From assembly GCA_024655885.1 (NCBI GenBank), contig JANLFN010000005.1, positions 180,007-233,380 of the forward strand: a DNA stretch of 53,374 nt. The letters run 5' to 3'. The notes under the pieces were generated by a model. The model did no database searches. It was not told where the DNA came from and saw only the letters and a list, made by a program, of their open reading frames with translations. Position numbers and translations under genes: made by a program. The stretch is from Eubacteriales bacterium. Its GTDB lineage: Bacteria; Bacillota; Clostridia; Acetivibrionales; JANLFN01. Shown here piece after piece: positions 20,752-27,570 of this stretch (positions within the stretch are counted from its first letter, which is position 1; each line of letters begins with the position of its first letter).

Positions 20752-21350
20752 GACTTTTGGTGAGGATAATCACTACAGCCTTTTTTAAATTGTTTTATAA
20801 GGTAGAAGTAGTGAATCGGGAAAATGTGCCCCAAAAAGGGGGGGCTGTTTTGTGCTCCAACCATGTGGGCGTGCTGGATATGTTTTTTATCGGTTATAAA
20901 TTAAACCGGTGGATCTATTATATGGCGAAAGAGGAGCTGTTTAAAATACCGGTATTGAGGCTTCTAATCCGGCAGTTGGGTGCCTTTCCCGTAAAAAGGG
21001 AAAAGGGAGATGTAGAATCCATAAAGACGGCATTAAAGCTTATCGGTGACGGTCACATTGTAGGAATTTTCCCTGAGGGGACAAGAACCTCGAAAAGAAA
21101 GGAAGGAAAAATGGTAAAACCTAAGCCGGGGGCAGCATTATTAGCTGTAAAAACCGGGGTTCCCGTTATTCCTGTGGCAATCCAGGGAAGATATAAGCTG
21201 TTCAGCAATGTAAAGGTAATTTTCGGTGAACCTATAAAACTGGATGCGAGTGAGAGTATTAAGTATACGACTGCTGAACTTACGGATTACAGCAGGAGCA
21301 TTATGGAAAAGATTTACGCACTGATGGGGGAAGGCCAGTGGAAATCATAG
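20748..21350 (+). CDS. plsC: 1-acyl-sn-glycerol-3-phosphate acyltransferase
   Basis: PlsC acylates lysophosphatidic acid to phosphatidic acid at the inner membrane face. In this 200-residue protein the HX4D catalytic motif is SNHVGVLDMF (about residues 38-47), followed by the substrate-binding FPEGTRTSKR and the VPVIPVAIQG segment. A hydrophobic N terminus suggests membrane association. ATG 20748 overlaps the cmk stop, and its own stop overlaps the next gene's GTG start, so cmk-plsC-ispH/rpsA form a tightly packed operon, common in clostridia. Confidence 0.93.
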   Translation: MRLLVRIITTAFFKLFYKVEVVNRENVPQKGGAVLCSNHVGVLDMFFIGYKLNRWIYYMAKEELFKIPVLRLLIRQLGAFPVKREKGDVESIKTALKLIGDGHIVGIFPEGTRTSKRKEGKMVKPKPGAALLAVKTGVPVIPVAIQGRYKLFSNVKVIFGEPIKLDASESIKYTTAELTDYSRSIMEKIYALMGEGQWKS

Positions 21351-23383
21351 CTGCAAAAACTGCCGGGTTTTGTTTTGGAGTGAGCAAAGCCGTCAATACA
21401 ATATTTGATATTTTGGGAAATACCAATGACCGTATATATACCTTGGGTCCCATCATTCACAACGAGGATGTGGTTGAGGACTTAAAGAAAAAAGGCGTGA
21501 AGGTAATCGACGATGCGGAACGGCTGGAAGGTCCGGGAAATGTGGTAATCAGGGCACACGGAGTAGCTCCCGACGTGTATGACAAATTAAATCAAAAGAA
21601 AATGAAGATCACGGATGCAACCTGCCCATATGTAAAAAAAATTCACCACCTGGTTGCTGAAAAGCAAAAACAGGGGTGGGACATAATTATCGTCGGTGAC
21701 AGGGAACACCCTGAAGTCAAGGGAATAAACGGGTGGTGCGGCAATGTGGCTTACATTGTGGACAAGGTGGAAGATATTGATGCAATACCTGATAATGGCA
21801 GGGATTTTTGCGTAGTGTCCCAGACCACATTAAACAGGGAAAAATGGGAGACCATTAATGAATTTCTTTGTAAAAAATTTAAAAATGTAATTAAATTTGA
21901 TACAATATGTAATGCTACCAGTACCCGGCAGAAGGAAGCGGAAGAAATTGCGAAAACCGTAGATTTGATGCTGGTTATAGGCGGAAATAAAAGCTCAAAC
22001 ACCCAGAAGCTGTATGAGATATGTAAAAAACACTGTGAAAGGACTTATAAGATAGAAAATGCAAGCGGCATTCCTCCGCTTGAAATAAAAAAAATAAAAA
22101 AAATTGGTGTTACTGCCGGAGCATCGACACCGGACTGGATAATCAAGGAGGTTATTGAAAAAATGGAAGAATTAAATAAACAGGAAAACGAAATGAGCTT
22201 CAGGGAGGCTTATGAGAGTTCGCTTGTAACCTTGCAAACCGGAGAGATTGTAAAGGGAAAAATCATTGGGTTCAACAATGCCGAAGTTTATGTTGATATG
22301 GGCTACAAATCGGATGGAATCATACCTATGGACCAGTTTTCCGACGATCCCAACTTTAAACCCGAAGAGTCTATAAAAATAGGGGATGAGGTTGAGGTGT
22401 TCGTTGTCAGGGTAAATGACGGTGACGGCAATGTGCTCCTGTCCAAGAAAAAAGTGGATGCTATGAAGGGATGGGATAAAATTGAAGAAGCTTATGAAAA
22501 AAAGCTTCCAATCAAGGCTGTTGTGACGGATGTTGTAAACGGCGGGGTTATGGCAAAATCTGAAAGTGTGAGAATATTTGTCCCTGCATCCCAGATCAGT
22601 GACAGGTATGTAAAAGATTTGAGCGAGTTTCTGAAGCAGACGGTAAATGTAAGGATCGTAGAGCTAAACAGGCAGAAAAAAAGAGTTGTGGGGTCCCAGA
22701 GACAGCTGCTGGAAGAGGAGAAGGCACGTCTGGAAAAAGAATTCTGGGAGAATATAGAAGTAGGGAAAAAATACAGCGGTGTTGTAAAAAGCCTTACCGA
22801 CTTCGGGGCCTTTGTGGATATAGGCGGAGTTGACGGATTAATCCACATTTCCGAACTGTCCTGGCTGAAGATAAAACACCCGTCAGAGGTTTTGAAGGTG
22901 GGGGATAAGGTGGAGGTCAATGTACTTGAGTTTGACAGGGAAAAGAAAAAGGTTTCATTGGGATACAAGAAAATGGAGGATAATCCTTGGTATCATGCAG
23001 AACAGAAGTATAAAGTAGGGGATATTGTAAAGGTAAAGGTGGTGCGTTTGGTCCCCTTTGGAGCATTTGTGGAATTGGAGGAAGGCATAGACGGACTGGT
23101 GCATATATCCCAGATTTCCAATGTAAGGATAGGGAAACCGGGGGATGTTTTAGAAATCGGACAGGTTGTGGAGGCTAAAATTTTGGAGGCCAACTTTGAA
23201 ACCAAGAAAATAGGACTCAGCATAAAGGAGGTTATGCCCATAGATCCTCCTTCCGCTCAGAAGAAGAATTCCCAGACCCAGGAGCAAGGGGGAGAAGAGC
23301 TTCCTTCCGAACACAAGGAAGACATTGATGTAAAAATCGGAGACCTGCTGGGGGATTTAAAAGTGGAGAAAACCGAGGACTAG
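21338..23383 (+). CDS. ispH: Fused HMBPP reductase (IspH) and S1-domain protein (RpsA-like)
   Basis: The N-terminal part (residues 1-283) is IspH, the 4Fe-4S enzyme making IPP and DMAPP in the last step of the MEP isoprenoid pathway. Its three cluster cysteines are Cys12 (AGFCFGV), Cys96 (DATCPYVKK) and Cys191 (DTICNATSTRQ). The remainder holds four S1 RNA-binding repeats beginning at about residues 296, 389, 472 and 557 (for example VVKSLTDFGAFVDIGGVDGL). The single 681-residue frame is intact and the fusion is known from clostridia and relatives. Start is GTG 21338, overlapping plsC. The acidic C-terminal tail is not part of an S1 domain. Confidence 0.95.
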   Translation: MEIIAAKTAGFCFGVSKAVNTIFDILGNTNDRIYTLGPIIHNEDVVEDLKKKGVKVIDDAERLEGPGNVVIRAHGVAPDVYDKLNQKKMKITDATCPYVKKIHHLVAEKQKQGWDIIIVGDREHPEVKGINGWCGNVAYIVDKVEDIDAIPDNGRDFCVVSQTTLNREKWETINEFLCKKFKNVIKFDTICNATSTRQKEAEEIAKTVDLMLVIGGNKSSNTQKLYEICKKHCERTYKIENASGIPPLEIKKIKKIGVTAGASTPDWIIKEVIEKMEELNKQENEMSFREAYESSLVTLQTGEIVKGKIIGFNNAEVYVDMGYKSDGIIPMDQFSDDPNFKPEESIKIGDEVEVFVVRVNDGDGNVLLSKKKVDAMKGWDKIEEAYEKKLPIKAVVTDVVNGGVMAKSESVRIFVPASQISDRYVKDLSEFLKQTVNVRIVELNRQKKRVVGSQRQLLEEEKARLEKEFWENIEVGKKYSGVVKSLTDFGAFVDIGGVDGLIHISELSWLKIKHPSEVLKVGDKVEVNVLEFDREKKKVSLGYKKMEDNPWYHAEQKYKVGDIVKVKVVRLVPFGAFVELEEGIDGLVHISQISNVRIGKPGDVLEIGQVVEAKILEANFETKKIGLSIKEVMPIDPPSAQKKNSQTQEQGGEELPSEHKEDIDVKIGDLLGDLKVEKTED

Positions 23384-23444: not shown

Positions 23445-23765
23445 TTATTGAGATATATCGAAAGAGTAGTTTCTTCCCGAGTTATTATCCCAGTTATTTG
23501 CACAGTCTTTAAAGCACACATTCATTGAACCTGTACCGGATACCGGAATTACAGCTTCAAAACCTGTGCTTGTCCTTGTCATGCTGTAGTCATAAAGATG
23601 GTCCCAGTTACTGCCGAATCCTACACGTGCGAATATATGTGTAGCGCCACTTTTGGCAAGAAGTCCGTCGTAGGATAATTTCACCTTATCCCCTGTAGCA
23701 GGTATTGCAGGGCTTATAGTGATTCCATTGGTCAGATAGTCTTGATTTTTACTTACCATAGACAC
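23445..23765 (-). CDS. Stand-alone CBM25-type carbohydrate-binding protein
   Basis: A 106-residue protein that is nearly all one family 25 (possibly 53) starch-binding module. The C-terminal NNWDNNSGRNYSF segment, with its exposed tryptophan and Asn/Gly pattern, is the hallmark, and GITISPAIPATGDKVKLSYD is the module's first strand. There is no signal peptide or other domain, so it is predicted to be cytoplasmic and may bind glycogen or another alpha-glucan. The reverse-strand start is GTG 23765, nine bases after AAGGAGG; an in-frame ATG lies two codons later. It is monocistronic. Confidence 0.75.
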   Translation of the reverse strand: MSMVSKNQDYLTNGITISPAIPATGDKVKLSYDGLLAKSGATHIFARVGFGSNWDHLYDYSMTRTSTGFEAVIPVSGTGSMNVCFKDCANNWDNNSGRNYSFDISQ

Positions 23766-24272
23766 GGAGCGTTTCCTCCTTTATTCATCTAATAATCAAT
23801 TTTCGTCAGCCACTTGCGCTTTGCGGCAATTAAATCAAAAGCTTTTGATCAAATATATTATTCTCGGGACAGCCATAAATCATACATCTGTTAAAAAAAA
23901 CACATGTTTTTTGTGGGAATAGAATACTATCTTTTTGTGTATAATAAATAAGCCGTTGAGGTGTTTAATCCGCCTTGCCGTAAATTTTTCCACGGCATGC
24001 TTAATGAAAATGGGATTTGTGAAATTCTACCCTTGATAGTACATTCGCAAACTGTTGTTTAGCCGGTATATGTGGATAAGAAATGCCGGCCGGTAGTGCT
24101 TTGCTAATTTGGCAAAGTGCATTTTTCGCCGTAATTAGCTTTATGGACAACGCGCTTTATACTCAATTTTCCAGCCTGCAAAACGTATAGAAACATTGCG
24201 ATTTTGCACACTGGTTATTGTGAAGTTTAAAGTGTGCCATCTTTAATTACAAACTACGAAAGGATGAATTTG
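23766..24272. other. Intergenic region upstream of the nucleotidyltransferase fusion
   Basis: This 507-base gap separates divergent genes. I see short dyads only: TGCCGT with ACGGCA around 23973-23996, CTTTGC with GCAAAG around 24099-24117, and an AAAAACA/TGTTTTT dyad near 23900. A single TGTGGATAA (24071-24079) matches a DnaA box. No confident promoter, gene or known RNA was found. Confidence 0.5.
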
Positions 24273-26735
24273 ATGAAGGCTGTTATCATGGCGGGTGGAG
24301 AAGGCACGAGACTAAGACCGCTTACATGTGAACGACCGAAACCAATGGTTCCGGTGGTAAATAAACCGGTTATGGAGCATATTATTGAGCTCCTTAAAAA
24401 ATACAGTCTGACCGATATTGCTGTTACTCTGCAGTATATGCCTGAACTGATCAAGGAGTATTTTAATGACGGAAGTGATTTTGGAGTGCATTTAAAATAC
24501 TTCACGGAAAAAAAACCCCTTGGAACCGCAGGAAGTGTCAAAAATGCAGAAGAGTTTCTGGATGATACATTTTTGGTAATCAGCGGGGATGCATTGACAG
24601 ATATAGATTTGTCCAAAGCCATTGAGTTTCACTTTTCAAAAGGGTCTATGGCAACCCTTGTGTTAAAGAAAGTGGATGTTCCCCTGGAATACGGGGTAGT
24701 AGTTACGGATAATGAAGGTTCAATAAACCGCTTTCTTGAGAAACCCAGTTGGGGCGAAGTATTCAGCGACACAGTCAACACCGGCATCTATATACTTTCC
24801 CCGGAAGTTCTCAATTATTACAAAAAGAATGAAATGTTTGACTTTGCAAAGGACCTCTTTCCCATATTACTTAAAGAAAAGAGACCCATGTATGGTTTCG
24901 TCACCGAGGATTACTGGTGTGATATCGGTGATCTGACCGCCTATAACCAGGCACATTTTGATATTCTGGACGGTCGGGTGAGGGTGAATATTCCGGGAAA
25001 GGAAATCAGAAAAGGCGTCTGGGTGGACCAGGACGCCGAACTGGACGAGGGAGCGCTTATTGAGGCCCCCTGCATTATCGGCAGGGGTACCAGGATAAAG
25101 GCAAATGCCGTCATAGGAAGTTATTCCACCATAGGTGAGAATAATATCATTGATGAAAGAAGCAGGATTAAGAGGTCTATCCTGTGGAAGAACTGCATCA
25201 TTGATAAAAACGTACAACTAAGGGGGGCTGTCCTATGCAACAAAATCCATTTAAAGGATAATGTTTCCGCGTTTGAGCAGTCTGTAATAGGCGACGATAC
25301 GGTTATAAAGGAAAACGCGATCATCAAGCCCGGCATTAAGATCTGGCCTGATAAAATAATTGATTCGGGAGTTGAGGTAAACTCAAACCTGGTATGGGGT
25401 TCCAAATTTACACGCACCATTTTCGGGAACAGGGGAGTAGCCGGAGAGATCAACGTGGATATAACGCCGGAATATGCGTCAAAGCTTGGAGCAGCCTATG
25501 GTGCTACTTTCAACGGGAAAGCGAAAATAGGCATAAGCTGTGACGACACAATGGCGGCAAAGATGCTGAAAATATCATTTACTGCGGGGTTGCTTTCTTC
25601 AGGCATAGAGATATACGATTTCGGTACCATGCTGTTGCCGGTGACCCGTTCGGCCATCCGGTTCTACAAAGCGGACGGGGGGATCCATATCAGCACCTCA
25701 ACCCTGGACACGGACAGGCTTTTTGTGGACTTTCTCGACAGGAATGGAAGCAATATCAACAGGGGATTGGAACGCAAAATAGAAAACGCTTTTATACGGG
25801 AGGATTTCAGCCGGTGTGAGGGAAACTGCATAAAGGAAATCAAAACCATACCGGATTACAGCAAGTTCTATTTAAGAAATATTATTAACAATATAAAATC
25901 AAAAAAAATTCAGTATAAAATAGCGCTTAACTCACCTTCCGGCTTTATAAGCAAAACAGTGGCGGGGTTGCTCAGCGAGCTGGGGTGTGAAGTGGAGATA
26001 ACCAACTTGAAGCTTGTCAACACAAAAACCATGAGACAAAGTATGACTTTCAACGATGTCAAATACTTTACAAGCCATATAAAAATGGAAAACTTTGATG
26101 TGGGGGTATCCATAGAGGATACCTCCGAAAAAATGATGCTGGTTGACAATAAGGGCAGGATCATTACCGAGGACATGTTCATTGCCCTTATCTCCCTGAT
26201 ACTGTTTAAAACTATTGAGGGCGGTACGGTTGTGGTGCCTATTTCGGCAAGCCATGTGGTGGAAAAGCTGGCGGATGAAAATAACGGCAAGGTTATAAGG
26301 ACGAAAACCTCCGTCCAGGACATTATGGGAATGCTTTTAGGCAGCGAGATAAAGGAGGAAATGCTGGAACAGTTTACCATGCATTTTGACGCCATGGCAG
26401 GGCTGGTTAAGATTCTGGACTTTATGAGTGTGAACGGCTACAAACTCTCGGATCTGGTAGACATGATACCCGACTTTTATATCAACAAAAAGGAAGTGGA
26501 ATGCCCGTGGGATGCGAAAGGAAAGGTTATCCGGCAGATTATACAGGAAGCGGATGGGGAGAGCATTGAAACCCTTGAGGGTGTCAAGGTCTACCAGAAT
26601 AACGGCTGGGTACTGATACTGCCTGATGCGGAACAGCCTGTGTGCAAGGTCATCAGTGAGAGCTATTCGGCGGAATTCGCAGAGGAACTCAGCAACATCT
26701 ATGTAAATAAAATACGAGAGATAAGCAGGAGTTGA
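24273..26735 (+). CDS. Sugar nucleotidyltransferase fused to degenerate phosphomannomutase-like domain
   Basis: The 820-residue protein has three parts. Residues 1-240 are a nucleotidyltransferase with the intact signature [20 protein letters not shown] and GDALTDIDL. Residues about 245-370 are left-handed beta-helix hexapeptide repeats ([11 protein letters not shown] type). Residues about 375-820 resemble phosphoglucomutase/phosphomannomutase, but the metal-binding DGDGDR loop is replaced by EDTSEK (near residue 612) and the active-serine loop reads ISTSTLD instead of TASHNP (near 470). The mutase half is therefore probably non-catalytic. Start ATG 24273 follows AAAGGA by nine bases; earlier in-frame codons lack a site. 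GDP-mannose is the usual guess for the product, unproven. Confidence 0.85.
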
Positions 26736-26886: not shown

Positions 26887-27528
26887 TCATTCATAGGCTT
26901 CATTGCCCGGGTGGCCGTAGTACGGCCTTTCGGCGGCCCGCCTCATGGGATCAGGGGTATACAGCTTAAAGCCTTCCTCATATTCCATCACCGCGTTGAT
27001 ATAGTCCTTGTCATTGGACCTTGAAAAGGTGCTGAAGACAATGTCATCCATATAATCGTCAAAGTAGGTGGTAATTAAATAATTTCTCACCTTTAAGTCG
27101 GTCAGGCCGCGGAAGAAATTTCGGGCCGGGGATAACCCCACATCAATGATGGCCGTATGGTCTTCGGTGGCGATATCATAGTTGCTGCTGGAGCGCAGGA
27201 TATTCATATCGCCTATGTCAACACAGCTTATAGTGTTGATGTGCATCTTTTTTAATTCATCCTGTATCACCGTGCGGCATAAAAAATGCCTGTCGCTTTC
27301 ATAACTCATTTTTCTGTATCTTTCCAGGTAATACTCCTCGGAAATTGCGGTGCTTGTCCTTTTTAAGACGGCTTCCCCTTGAATAAGCAATTTGCTGTCT
27401 ATCAGGTATTTTAGAAAGTTTGTGTCCCTTTCGCCGCCGCTGTTTGCTTTTGAATTGTCAAGCACCTTTTCCAGAGTCACGCTGACATCTCTCTGGCGCA
27501 GTTTATCCACAAGTCTGCTGTTTAGCAA
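26887..27528 (-). CDS. Conserved-looking unknown soluble protein
   Basis: A 213-residue soluble protein with no family I recognise. It opens with a helical region (LVDKLRQRDVSVTLEKVLDN), has a serine/tyrosine-rich middle and an acidic segment FDDYMDDIVFSTF, and ends with a basic, proline-containing tail. I see no metal, nucleotide or membrane motif. The reading from GTG 27537 would start inside the ribosome site: GAGGTG is followed after six bases by TTG 27528, which I take as the start. It is transcribed on the reverse strand just downstream of ribH and may share the riboflavin transcript. Confidence 0.6.
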   Translation of the reverse strand: MLNSRLVDKLRQRDVSVTLEKVLDNSKANSGGERDTNFLKYLIDSKLLIQGEAVLKRTSTAISEEYYLERYRKMSYESDRHFLCRTVIQDELKKMHINTISCVDIGDMNILRSSSNYDIATEDHTAIIDVGLSPARNFFRGLTDLKVRNYLITTYFDDYMDDIVFSTFSRSNDKDYINAVMEYEEGFKLYTPDPMRRAAERPYYGHPGNEAYE

Positions 27529-27570
27529 TGAAATCACCTCGGAATTATTATATCCAAAGTGAGTAATTTA

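Follow-up and report, generated by a model that had tools for sequence, protein, structure and literature searches.

What can a phosphomannomutase-like domain still contribute to a protein when it is fused to a nucleotidyltransferase and its own catalytic motifs are gone? This question is raised by a gene in a 53,374-nucleotide stretch of DNA from a Eubacteriales bacterium, here called the window. As first described, the reading frame is long and intact: it runs from the ATG at 24273 to the stop codon at 26735 and encodes 820 amino acids. A longer GTG start at 24234 is unneeded, because the matches of full-length relatives start at the same residue and an AAAGGA lies upstream of the ATG. Promoter and terminator scans returned nothing above shuffles. 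The gene divides into the following features:

24273..26735, plus strand: whole gene, 820 aa, a fusion of sugar-1-phosphate nucleotidyltransferase, beta-helix and pseudo-phosphohexomutase (translation, Pfam, structure model)
24273..24968, plus strand: nucleotidyltransferase (NT) domain, aa 1-232, signature kept (PF00483, E 4e-58)
25008..25382, plus strand: left-handed beta-helix spanning roughly aa 246-370 (PF25084 scores 67.8 bits, best over aa 246-350; the model shows a pattern of short strands here)
25419..26717, plus strand: phosphohexomutase-fold domain without catalytic motifs, aa 383-815 (PF02878, 74.9 bits; Z 38.7 to 9du5)
25689..25709, plus strand: degenerate phosphoserine loop ISTSTLD, aa 473-479 (alignments)
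26115..26132, plus strand: altered metal loop EDTSEK, aa 615-620 (alignments)
26340..26372, plus strand: segment where the sugar-specificity loop has been lost, around aa 690-700 (GExSG in 0/91 fusions)
26502..26534, plus strand: fusion-specific motif C-P-W-x-x-K-G-x-V-[MI]-R, aa 744-754 (alignment of fusions)
26619..26639, plus strand: phosphate-binding loop degenerated to LPDAEQP, aa 783-789 (the compared mutases read RPSGTEP or RASNTGP)

The AlphaFold2 model of the protein, built on an alignment of 56 rows, has a mean pLDDT of 85.9 and a pTM of 0.67, with pLDDT below 50 at residues 157-169, 375-380 and 583-592. For the mutase-like half, the Pfam cut-off of the matching PGM_PMM_I family (PF02878) is 22.5 bits; domains II and III of the mutase score under their cut-offs.

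A scan of genome contigs with this protein found 102 relatives and kept 80 of these loci. We aligned 91 fusions, comprising this gene, a paralogue from the same genome, 56 of the 80 loci, 29 further Bacillota proteins found as profile matches and four plasmid records (from Streptomyces, Nonomuraea and Sulfuricurvum); partial or NT-only loci are left out, and one sequence (L044) was trimmed to 830 residues. Those of the examined plasmid records that list the gene name it simply “sugar phosphate nucleotidyltransferase”. The paralogue (L002, G000:C23:52266-54704) is 49-50% identical to the gene in the window and also lacks the mutase motifs. The original prediction correctly recognized a preserved nucleotidyltransferase signature in the first domain. 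The pattern GxGxRLxPLT...PKP is present, with G8, G9, G11, R13, P16 and K23 found in 91/91 fusions, as are D106, E156, K157 and P158.

The top NCBIfam match of the fusion is the mannose-1-phosphate guanylyltransferase model man1P_GTase_Rv at 257.3 bits, under its cut-off of 440. The GlgC model TIGR02091 gives 115.3 bits (under its cut-off of 424.9) and the GalU model 61.2 bits, far under its cut-off of 326.8. The top PDB sequence match (222 bits) is 8x7s/tlr0611, annotated as a UTP-glucose-1-phosphate uridylyltransferase. An NT domain followed by a beta-helix is common to tlr0611 and the fusion (Z 37.0 for model residues 1-375, with 342 residues aligned at 38% identity), but tlr0611 has no mutase-like half. 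The same model residues align with eIF2B epsilon (5b04, Z 38.4) and with chains of the GMPPA/GMPPB complex (7d72, Z 38.1), which have the NT and beta-helix fold as well. Catalytically inactive regulatory subunits are known from the GMPPA/GMPPB and eIF2B epsilon systems; there it is an NT domain that has no activity, whereas in the fusion it would be the appended mutase fold. GlgC, the ADP-glucose pyrophosphorylase, also combines an NT domain with a beta-helix and lacks a mutase-like half; it makes a glucan donor and is allosterically regulated. We take tlr0611 to be of the CugP type. The CugP of Synechocystis, sll1558, is annotated as a GMPP, yet PMC7401256 credits it with UDP-glucose pyrophosphorylase activity.

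The mutase-like half keeps its fold, and both the Pfam score and the structural alignment put the resemblance beyond chance. Residues 380-820 of the model superimpose, along the full length of this half, on the Thermococcus kodakarensis PGM 9du5 (29% identity over 423 residues, rmsd 2.6, Z 38.7), and on 1wqa (Z 37.9) and 1k35 (Z 34.5); the two highest scores are given by Thermococcus and Pyrococcus PGM/PMM. Active alpha-D-phosphohexomutases have four characteristic loops, for the phosphoserine, the metal, the sugar and the phosphate, and all four are changed in the fusion. Structure prediction and comparison with PMM/PGM, which had been proposed as a check, thus show a matching fold with altered catalytic loops.

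The first of these alterations concerns the phosphoserine loop, where ISTSTLD had been read in place of TASHNP. This reading holds with one refinement. ISTSTLD pairs with I-[ST]-A-S-H-N-P in the GlmM and PMM/PGM encoded by this genome (the multiple alignment has two gap columns inside the loop), so that the (T/S)ASHNP site corresponds to STLD and S476 sits opposite the phosphoserine. The Ser-His pair and Pro479 are each found in 0/91 fusions, and the residue at position 476 varies, being Ser in 45 of the 91, Asp in 14, Cys in 8, Ala in 7 and others in the remainder.

At the metal loop, EDTSEK pairs without gaps with DGDADR or DGDGDR of the same GlmM and PMM/PGM, in agreement with the substitution for DGDGDR noted at the outset, and DGDxD occurs in 0/91 fusions. 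The possibility that the metal residues are preserved at another position had been named as grounds for refutation. No relocated motif was found, since SHN, SHD and DGDxD are all absent from the C-terminal half of the 91 fusions, but the triad itself is not simply lost. Position 1 is acidic in 81/91 fusions, position 2 is D, N, S or T in 81/91 and position 3 is acidic in 90/91 (E or D at residue 619), and an altered triad [DE]-x-[DNST]-x-[DE], with possible ligands at all three positions, is found in 72/91; D-x-D-x-D occurs in 0/91 and D-x-D-x-E in 9/91. Judging from these residues, the metal loop has changed without disappearing. Given the altered triad, metal binding by the fusion is therefore possible, and some residual chemistry may be possible too.

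The other two loops are changed as well. The sugar loop GExSG is missing from every fusion; in a pairwise alignment, the region of aa 690-700 faces GEMSGH in the PMM of this genome, whose Glu pairs with E692, and residue 692 is E or D in 48/91. Of the phosphate loop R-x-S-[GN]-T, Arg at 783 and Ser at 785 are found in 0/91 fusions and Thr at 787 in 1/91. Because the sugar and phosphate loops are lost, ligand binding cannot be carried over from homology.

The genome in question has other mutases. It holds three further PGM_PMM_I genes; two carry both motifs, and in the third ITASHNP alone was read. In a survey of 31 genomes, all 12 with a fusion-sized PF02878 frame (819-869 aa) also have normal-sized PF02878 mutase genes; motifs were read for the best match per genome in these 12 and in full in the present genome. 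An intact mutase gene follows the fusion in 3/85 loci, all from Actinomycetota. From these gene inventories, it appears the cell need not rely on the fusion as a mutase.

We found no fusion with intact mutase sites (0/91). The fusions were gathered by similarity to this protein, with some weaker matches falling outside the set (e.g., G007, a 757-aa frame), and a separate active fusion could therefore be missed. The records are labeled Bacillota, Actinomycetota, Armatimonadota, Eremiobacterota and Rhodospirillales, and the Sulfuricurvum plasmid is from Campylobacterota. The Sulfuricurvum kujiense plasmid protein (L120) is the most divergent fusion, with 32% identity and a long branch, and its gene lies between two phospholipase genes. 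A quick tree was built from the 52 fusions left once the set had been thinned at 70% identity, together with 35 mutases, of which 32 have both motifs, one has only SHNP and two have only the metal loop. In this tree, all fusions fall on one side of one branch with an SH-aLRT of 99. A sequencing or frame error behind the motif losses can be ruled out because the frame is intact and the losses are common to the 52 thinned fusions. The loss of the catalytic motifs looks old and is most simply explained by a single early event, which would make this gene an unexceptional member of the family. The original prediction overlooked this breadth, as it did the paralogue and the glucan-assembly context described below.

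Median dN/dS values (NG86) are 0.10 for the mutase-like half (30 pairs), 0.077 for the NT domain (34 pairs) and 0.20 for the beta-helix (31 pairs), drawn from 43 non-independent pairs at 78-98.5% identity, of which those with dS below 2 were used. The mutase-like half is under purifying selection and shows no decay. With a homologous fold, catalytic residues gone and maintenance by selection, it can be classed as a pseudoenzyme domain whose inactivity is predicted. The proposal that selection keeps it for a non-catalytic job is likely correct, because the frame has stayed open and this half is under purifying selection even though its catalytic residues have gone. The more specific suggestion of sugar-phosphate sensing fares less well, as GExSG, R783 and S785 are each absent from all 91 fusions.

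The fusions also have conserved residues of their own. In the motif at aa 744-754, G750 is found in 91/91, R754 in 89/91, and C744 and W746 in 84/91 each; K749 is also present in mutases. Among the 52 thinned rows, and judged against just five mutase rows, the positions conserved in fusions and not in mutases include R459 and G750 (52 rows each), R754 (50), N394, P399 and R514 (49 each), H472 and E619 (47 each), and C744 and D785 (46 each). In the secondary structure of the model, R459 lies in the helix preceding the old phosphoserine strand, H472 on that strand, E619 within the metal loop and D785 after the strand leading to the old phosphate loop. This placement, as modeled, hints at a rebuilt cleft.

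We then considered the genes that accompany the fusion. Across 299 Bacillota genomes, counted with kinship ignored, a GH57 branching enzyme (BE_C) is present in 119 of the 139 genomes with a full-length fusion (E at most 1e-190), in 17 of the 32 with a weaker match, which were set aside, and in 5 of the 128 without; 20/139 full-fusion genomes have no BE_C match at E 1e-8. GlgC shows the corresponding counts of 25/139, 11/32 and 50/128, and is thus absent from 114/139 full-fusion genomes. Among the 119 genomes having both a full fusion and GH57 BE_C, 103 have no GlgC above cut-off. GalU is found in 78/139, 10/32 and 71/128; seven matches under the family cut-off were picked out by E-value. The idea that the fusion replaces GalU is unsupported, because GalU is equally common with and without it. 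The association extends to gene position: the fusion lies within 5 kb of a GH57 BE_C gene in at least 67 of the 107 genomes having both, among the matches listed (all 150 fusion rows), where uniform placement would give about 0.005 such pairs per genome.

Immediate neighbors were counted at 85 loci with recognized fusion frames and unequal flanks (29 have about 1.5 kb), after dropping one locus whose fusion frame was unrecognized (L058) and three partial ones (L037, L042 and L060); neighbors were grouped into families by single-linkage BLAST clustering, and each family takes its name from scans of one to three of its members. A GT4 glycosyltransferase adjoins the fusion in 33/85 loci, a CBM53 starch-binding protein in 15/85, the GH57 branching enzyme in 11/85, MalQ in 6/85 and a cyclic-glucan-synthase-like protein with GH94 and glucoamylase domains in 3/85. 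The top NCBIfam match of the GT4 neighbor is TIGR02149 (Corynebacterium-type glycogen synthase), under cut-off, and its nearest solved structure is alpha-maltose-1-phosphate synthase. At one locus (L064), GT4, fusion and CBM53 genes follow in succession on one strand. In L038, L040 and L041 (Fervidicella, an uncultured Clostridia bacterium and Caloramator), the fusion is followed by a large cyclic-glucan-synthase-like frame, of 1986 aa in L041. The window is among the loci with a CBM53 neighbor:

23445..23765, minus strand: neighboring 106-aa CBM53 (starch-binding) protein (PF16760, 38.1 bits, cut-off 27.6)

Two other frames flank the gene. A 216-aa frame at 26887-27537 on the minus strand has no Pfam match at 0.001 and has relatives in seven neighborhood loci, including this window. 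A 681-aa frame at 21338-23383 on the plus strand resembles, by eye, IspH fused to S1 repeats, and IspH-S1 repeat fusions are known in Clostridia.

Based on these observations, we favor, with moderate confidence, the hypothesis that the fusion is an NDP-glucose pyrophosphorylase for glucan assembly that carries a pseudo-mutase regulatory or assembly domain. The NT domain, on this view a working sugar-1-phosphate nucleotidyltransferase, would make an NDP-glucose that serves as the donor for a glycogen-like or other glucan. The GT4 glycosyltransferase would polymerize this glucan and the GH57 branching enzyme would branch it. The C-terminal half would descend from a phosphoglucomutase/phosphomannomutase, no longer perform mutase chemistry and be retained to serve the regulation or assembly of the pyrophosphorylase; its metal site may be an altered one. 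The sequences themselves show that the catalytic residues are gone from all 91 fusions, that the fusions share one branch of a quick tree, that selection is purifying and that the genes are linked; the NDP-glucose product, its use for a glucan and the regulatory or assembly function are inferred. Further, and only tentatively, one may picture a GlgC-independent glucan pathway, widespread in Bacillota and made up of the fusion, GT4, GH57 and sometimes CBM53, in which the donor enzyme is gated by a former phosphoglucomutase acting as an allosteric hexose-phosphate sensor with a rebuilt ligand and metal site.

Some observations count against the NDP-glucose reading. In this genome, the GT4 (C15:153043-154227) and BE_C (C15:156524-156826) genes are close to each other but on another contig than the fusion, and both GlgC and GalU are present; it is therefore no clean example of the GlgC-free pattern. 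The top NCBIfam match, though under its cut-off, also points to mannose. A comparable gene pair, likened here by description and not by sequence, is Rv3032/Rv3031 of Mycobacterium. Rv3032 is described as a glucosyltransferase whose presumed donors are UDP- and ADP-glucose (PMC4981310), and Rv3031 as a putative GH57 branching enzyme (PMC6629080). Deleting Rv3032 reportedly caused no significant change in alpha-glucan, and its role was tied to methylglucose lipopolysaccharides. Caution is therefore needed in equating GT4/GH57 pairs with glycogen storage. The first 300,000 characters of an alpha-glucan review (PMC11046441) mention neither phosphomannomutase, mannose-1-phosphate, CugP nor nucleotidyltransferase, and in the titles and abstract openings of the open-access papers listed, which take in few subscription journals, we recognized no description of the motif loss or the glucan linkage.

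Within the NDP-glucose reading, the C-terminal half could be a mere scaffold, used for oligomerization or for docking GT4 and GH57, and bind no ligand. The disappearance of the sugar and phosphate loops along with the catalytic ones would suit such a role, as would the tight linkage of the GT4 and GH57 genes to the fusion. However, the fusion-specific polar residues H472, E619, D785, R459 and R754 lie on or near the old loop segments, and a scaffold would not need them; we regard this version as possible but doubtful. It seems rather improbable that the NT domain makes GDP-mannose or another non-glucose NDP-sugar, with an inactive C-terminal half and glucan neighbors that are incidental. The mannose-1-phosphate guanylyltransferase match and the GMPPA/GMPPB chains, which align as well as tlr0611 (Z 38.1 versus 37.0), would fit this alternative, but the GH57 linkage and the co-occurrence in 119/139 versus 5/128 genomes are hardly incidental. 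Continued catalysis through the altered metal loop, such as phosphate hydrolysis or transfer on another substrate, is very unlikely: the three possible ligand positions and the acidic residue at 619 would allow it, but there is no conserved nucleophile at position 476 and the phosphate-binding loop is missing.

A mannose role has been discussed for SCO1388 of Streptomyces coelicolor, which has the same published order of NT and PMM-like domains and is likened to the fusion by domain order alone. The plasmid-borne Streptomyces relatives L119 and L122 belong to the fusion family and are without mutase motifs. The cyanobacterial protein sll1496 is presumably a fusion as well. In print, sll1496 is tabulated as a mannose-1-phosphate guanyltransferase (PMC10068330) and SCO1388 is called an apparently bifunctional guanylyltransferase/phosphomannomutase (PMC5982138). 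According to the latter paper, insertion in sco1388 gave no phage resistance and double mutants with sco4238 or sco3039 resembled the single manC mutants, leading the authors to state that SCO1388 probably adds little GMP activity. A transposon screen (PMC6585502) makes two opposed statements: in one place SCO1388 appears as a downmodulator of actinorhodin, and in another it is grouped with the mannosylation genes manA, manB and pmt, in which insertions likewise lower actinorhodin; the second placing would count for a mannose role and against the NDP-glucose reading. Least likely of all is that the fusion provides GDP-mannose as a bifunctional mannose-1-phosphate guanylyltransferase/phosphomannomutase. 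The domain order, the man1P_GTase_Rv match (257 bits, under cut-off) and these descriptions of SCO1388 speak for this alternative; against it stand the catalytic residues missing in 91/91 fusions, the sco1388 double-insertion phenotype and the glucan genes beside the fusions.

The fusion is common, being present at full length in 139 of the 299 sampled Bacillota genomes. Its domain order resembles that of a bifunctional guanylyltransferase/phosphomannomutase, but its residues argue against a normal mutase and its neighbors point to glucose polymers over GDP-mannose. If the donor and the polymer are confirmed, the fusion would be the missing pyrophosphorylase of the GH57-type glucan systems of Bacillota, which mostly lack GlgC in this sample, and it would clearly exemplify how a domain of a metabolic enzyme can be put to non-catalytic use.
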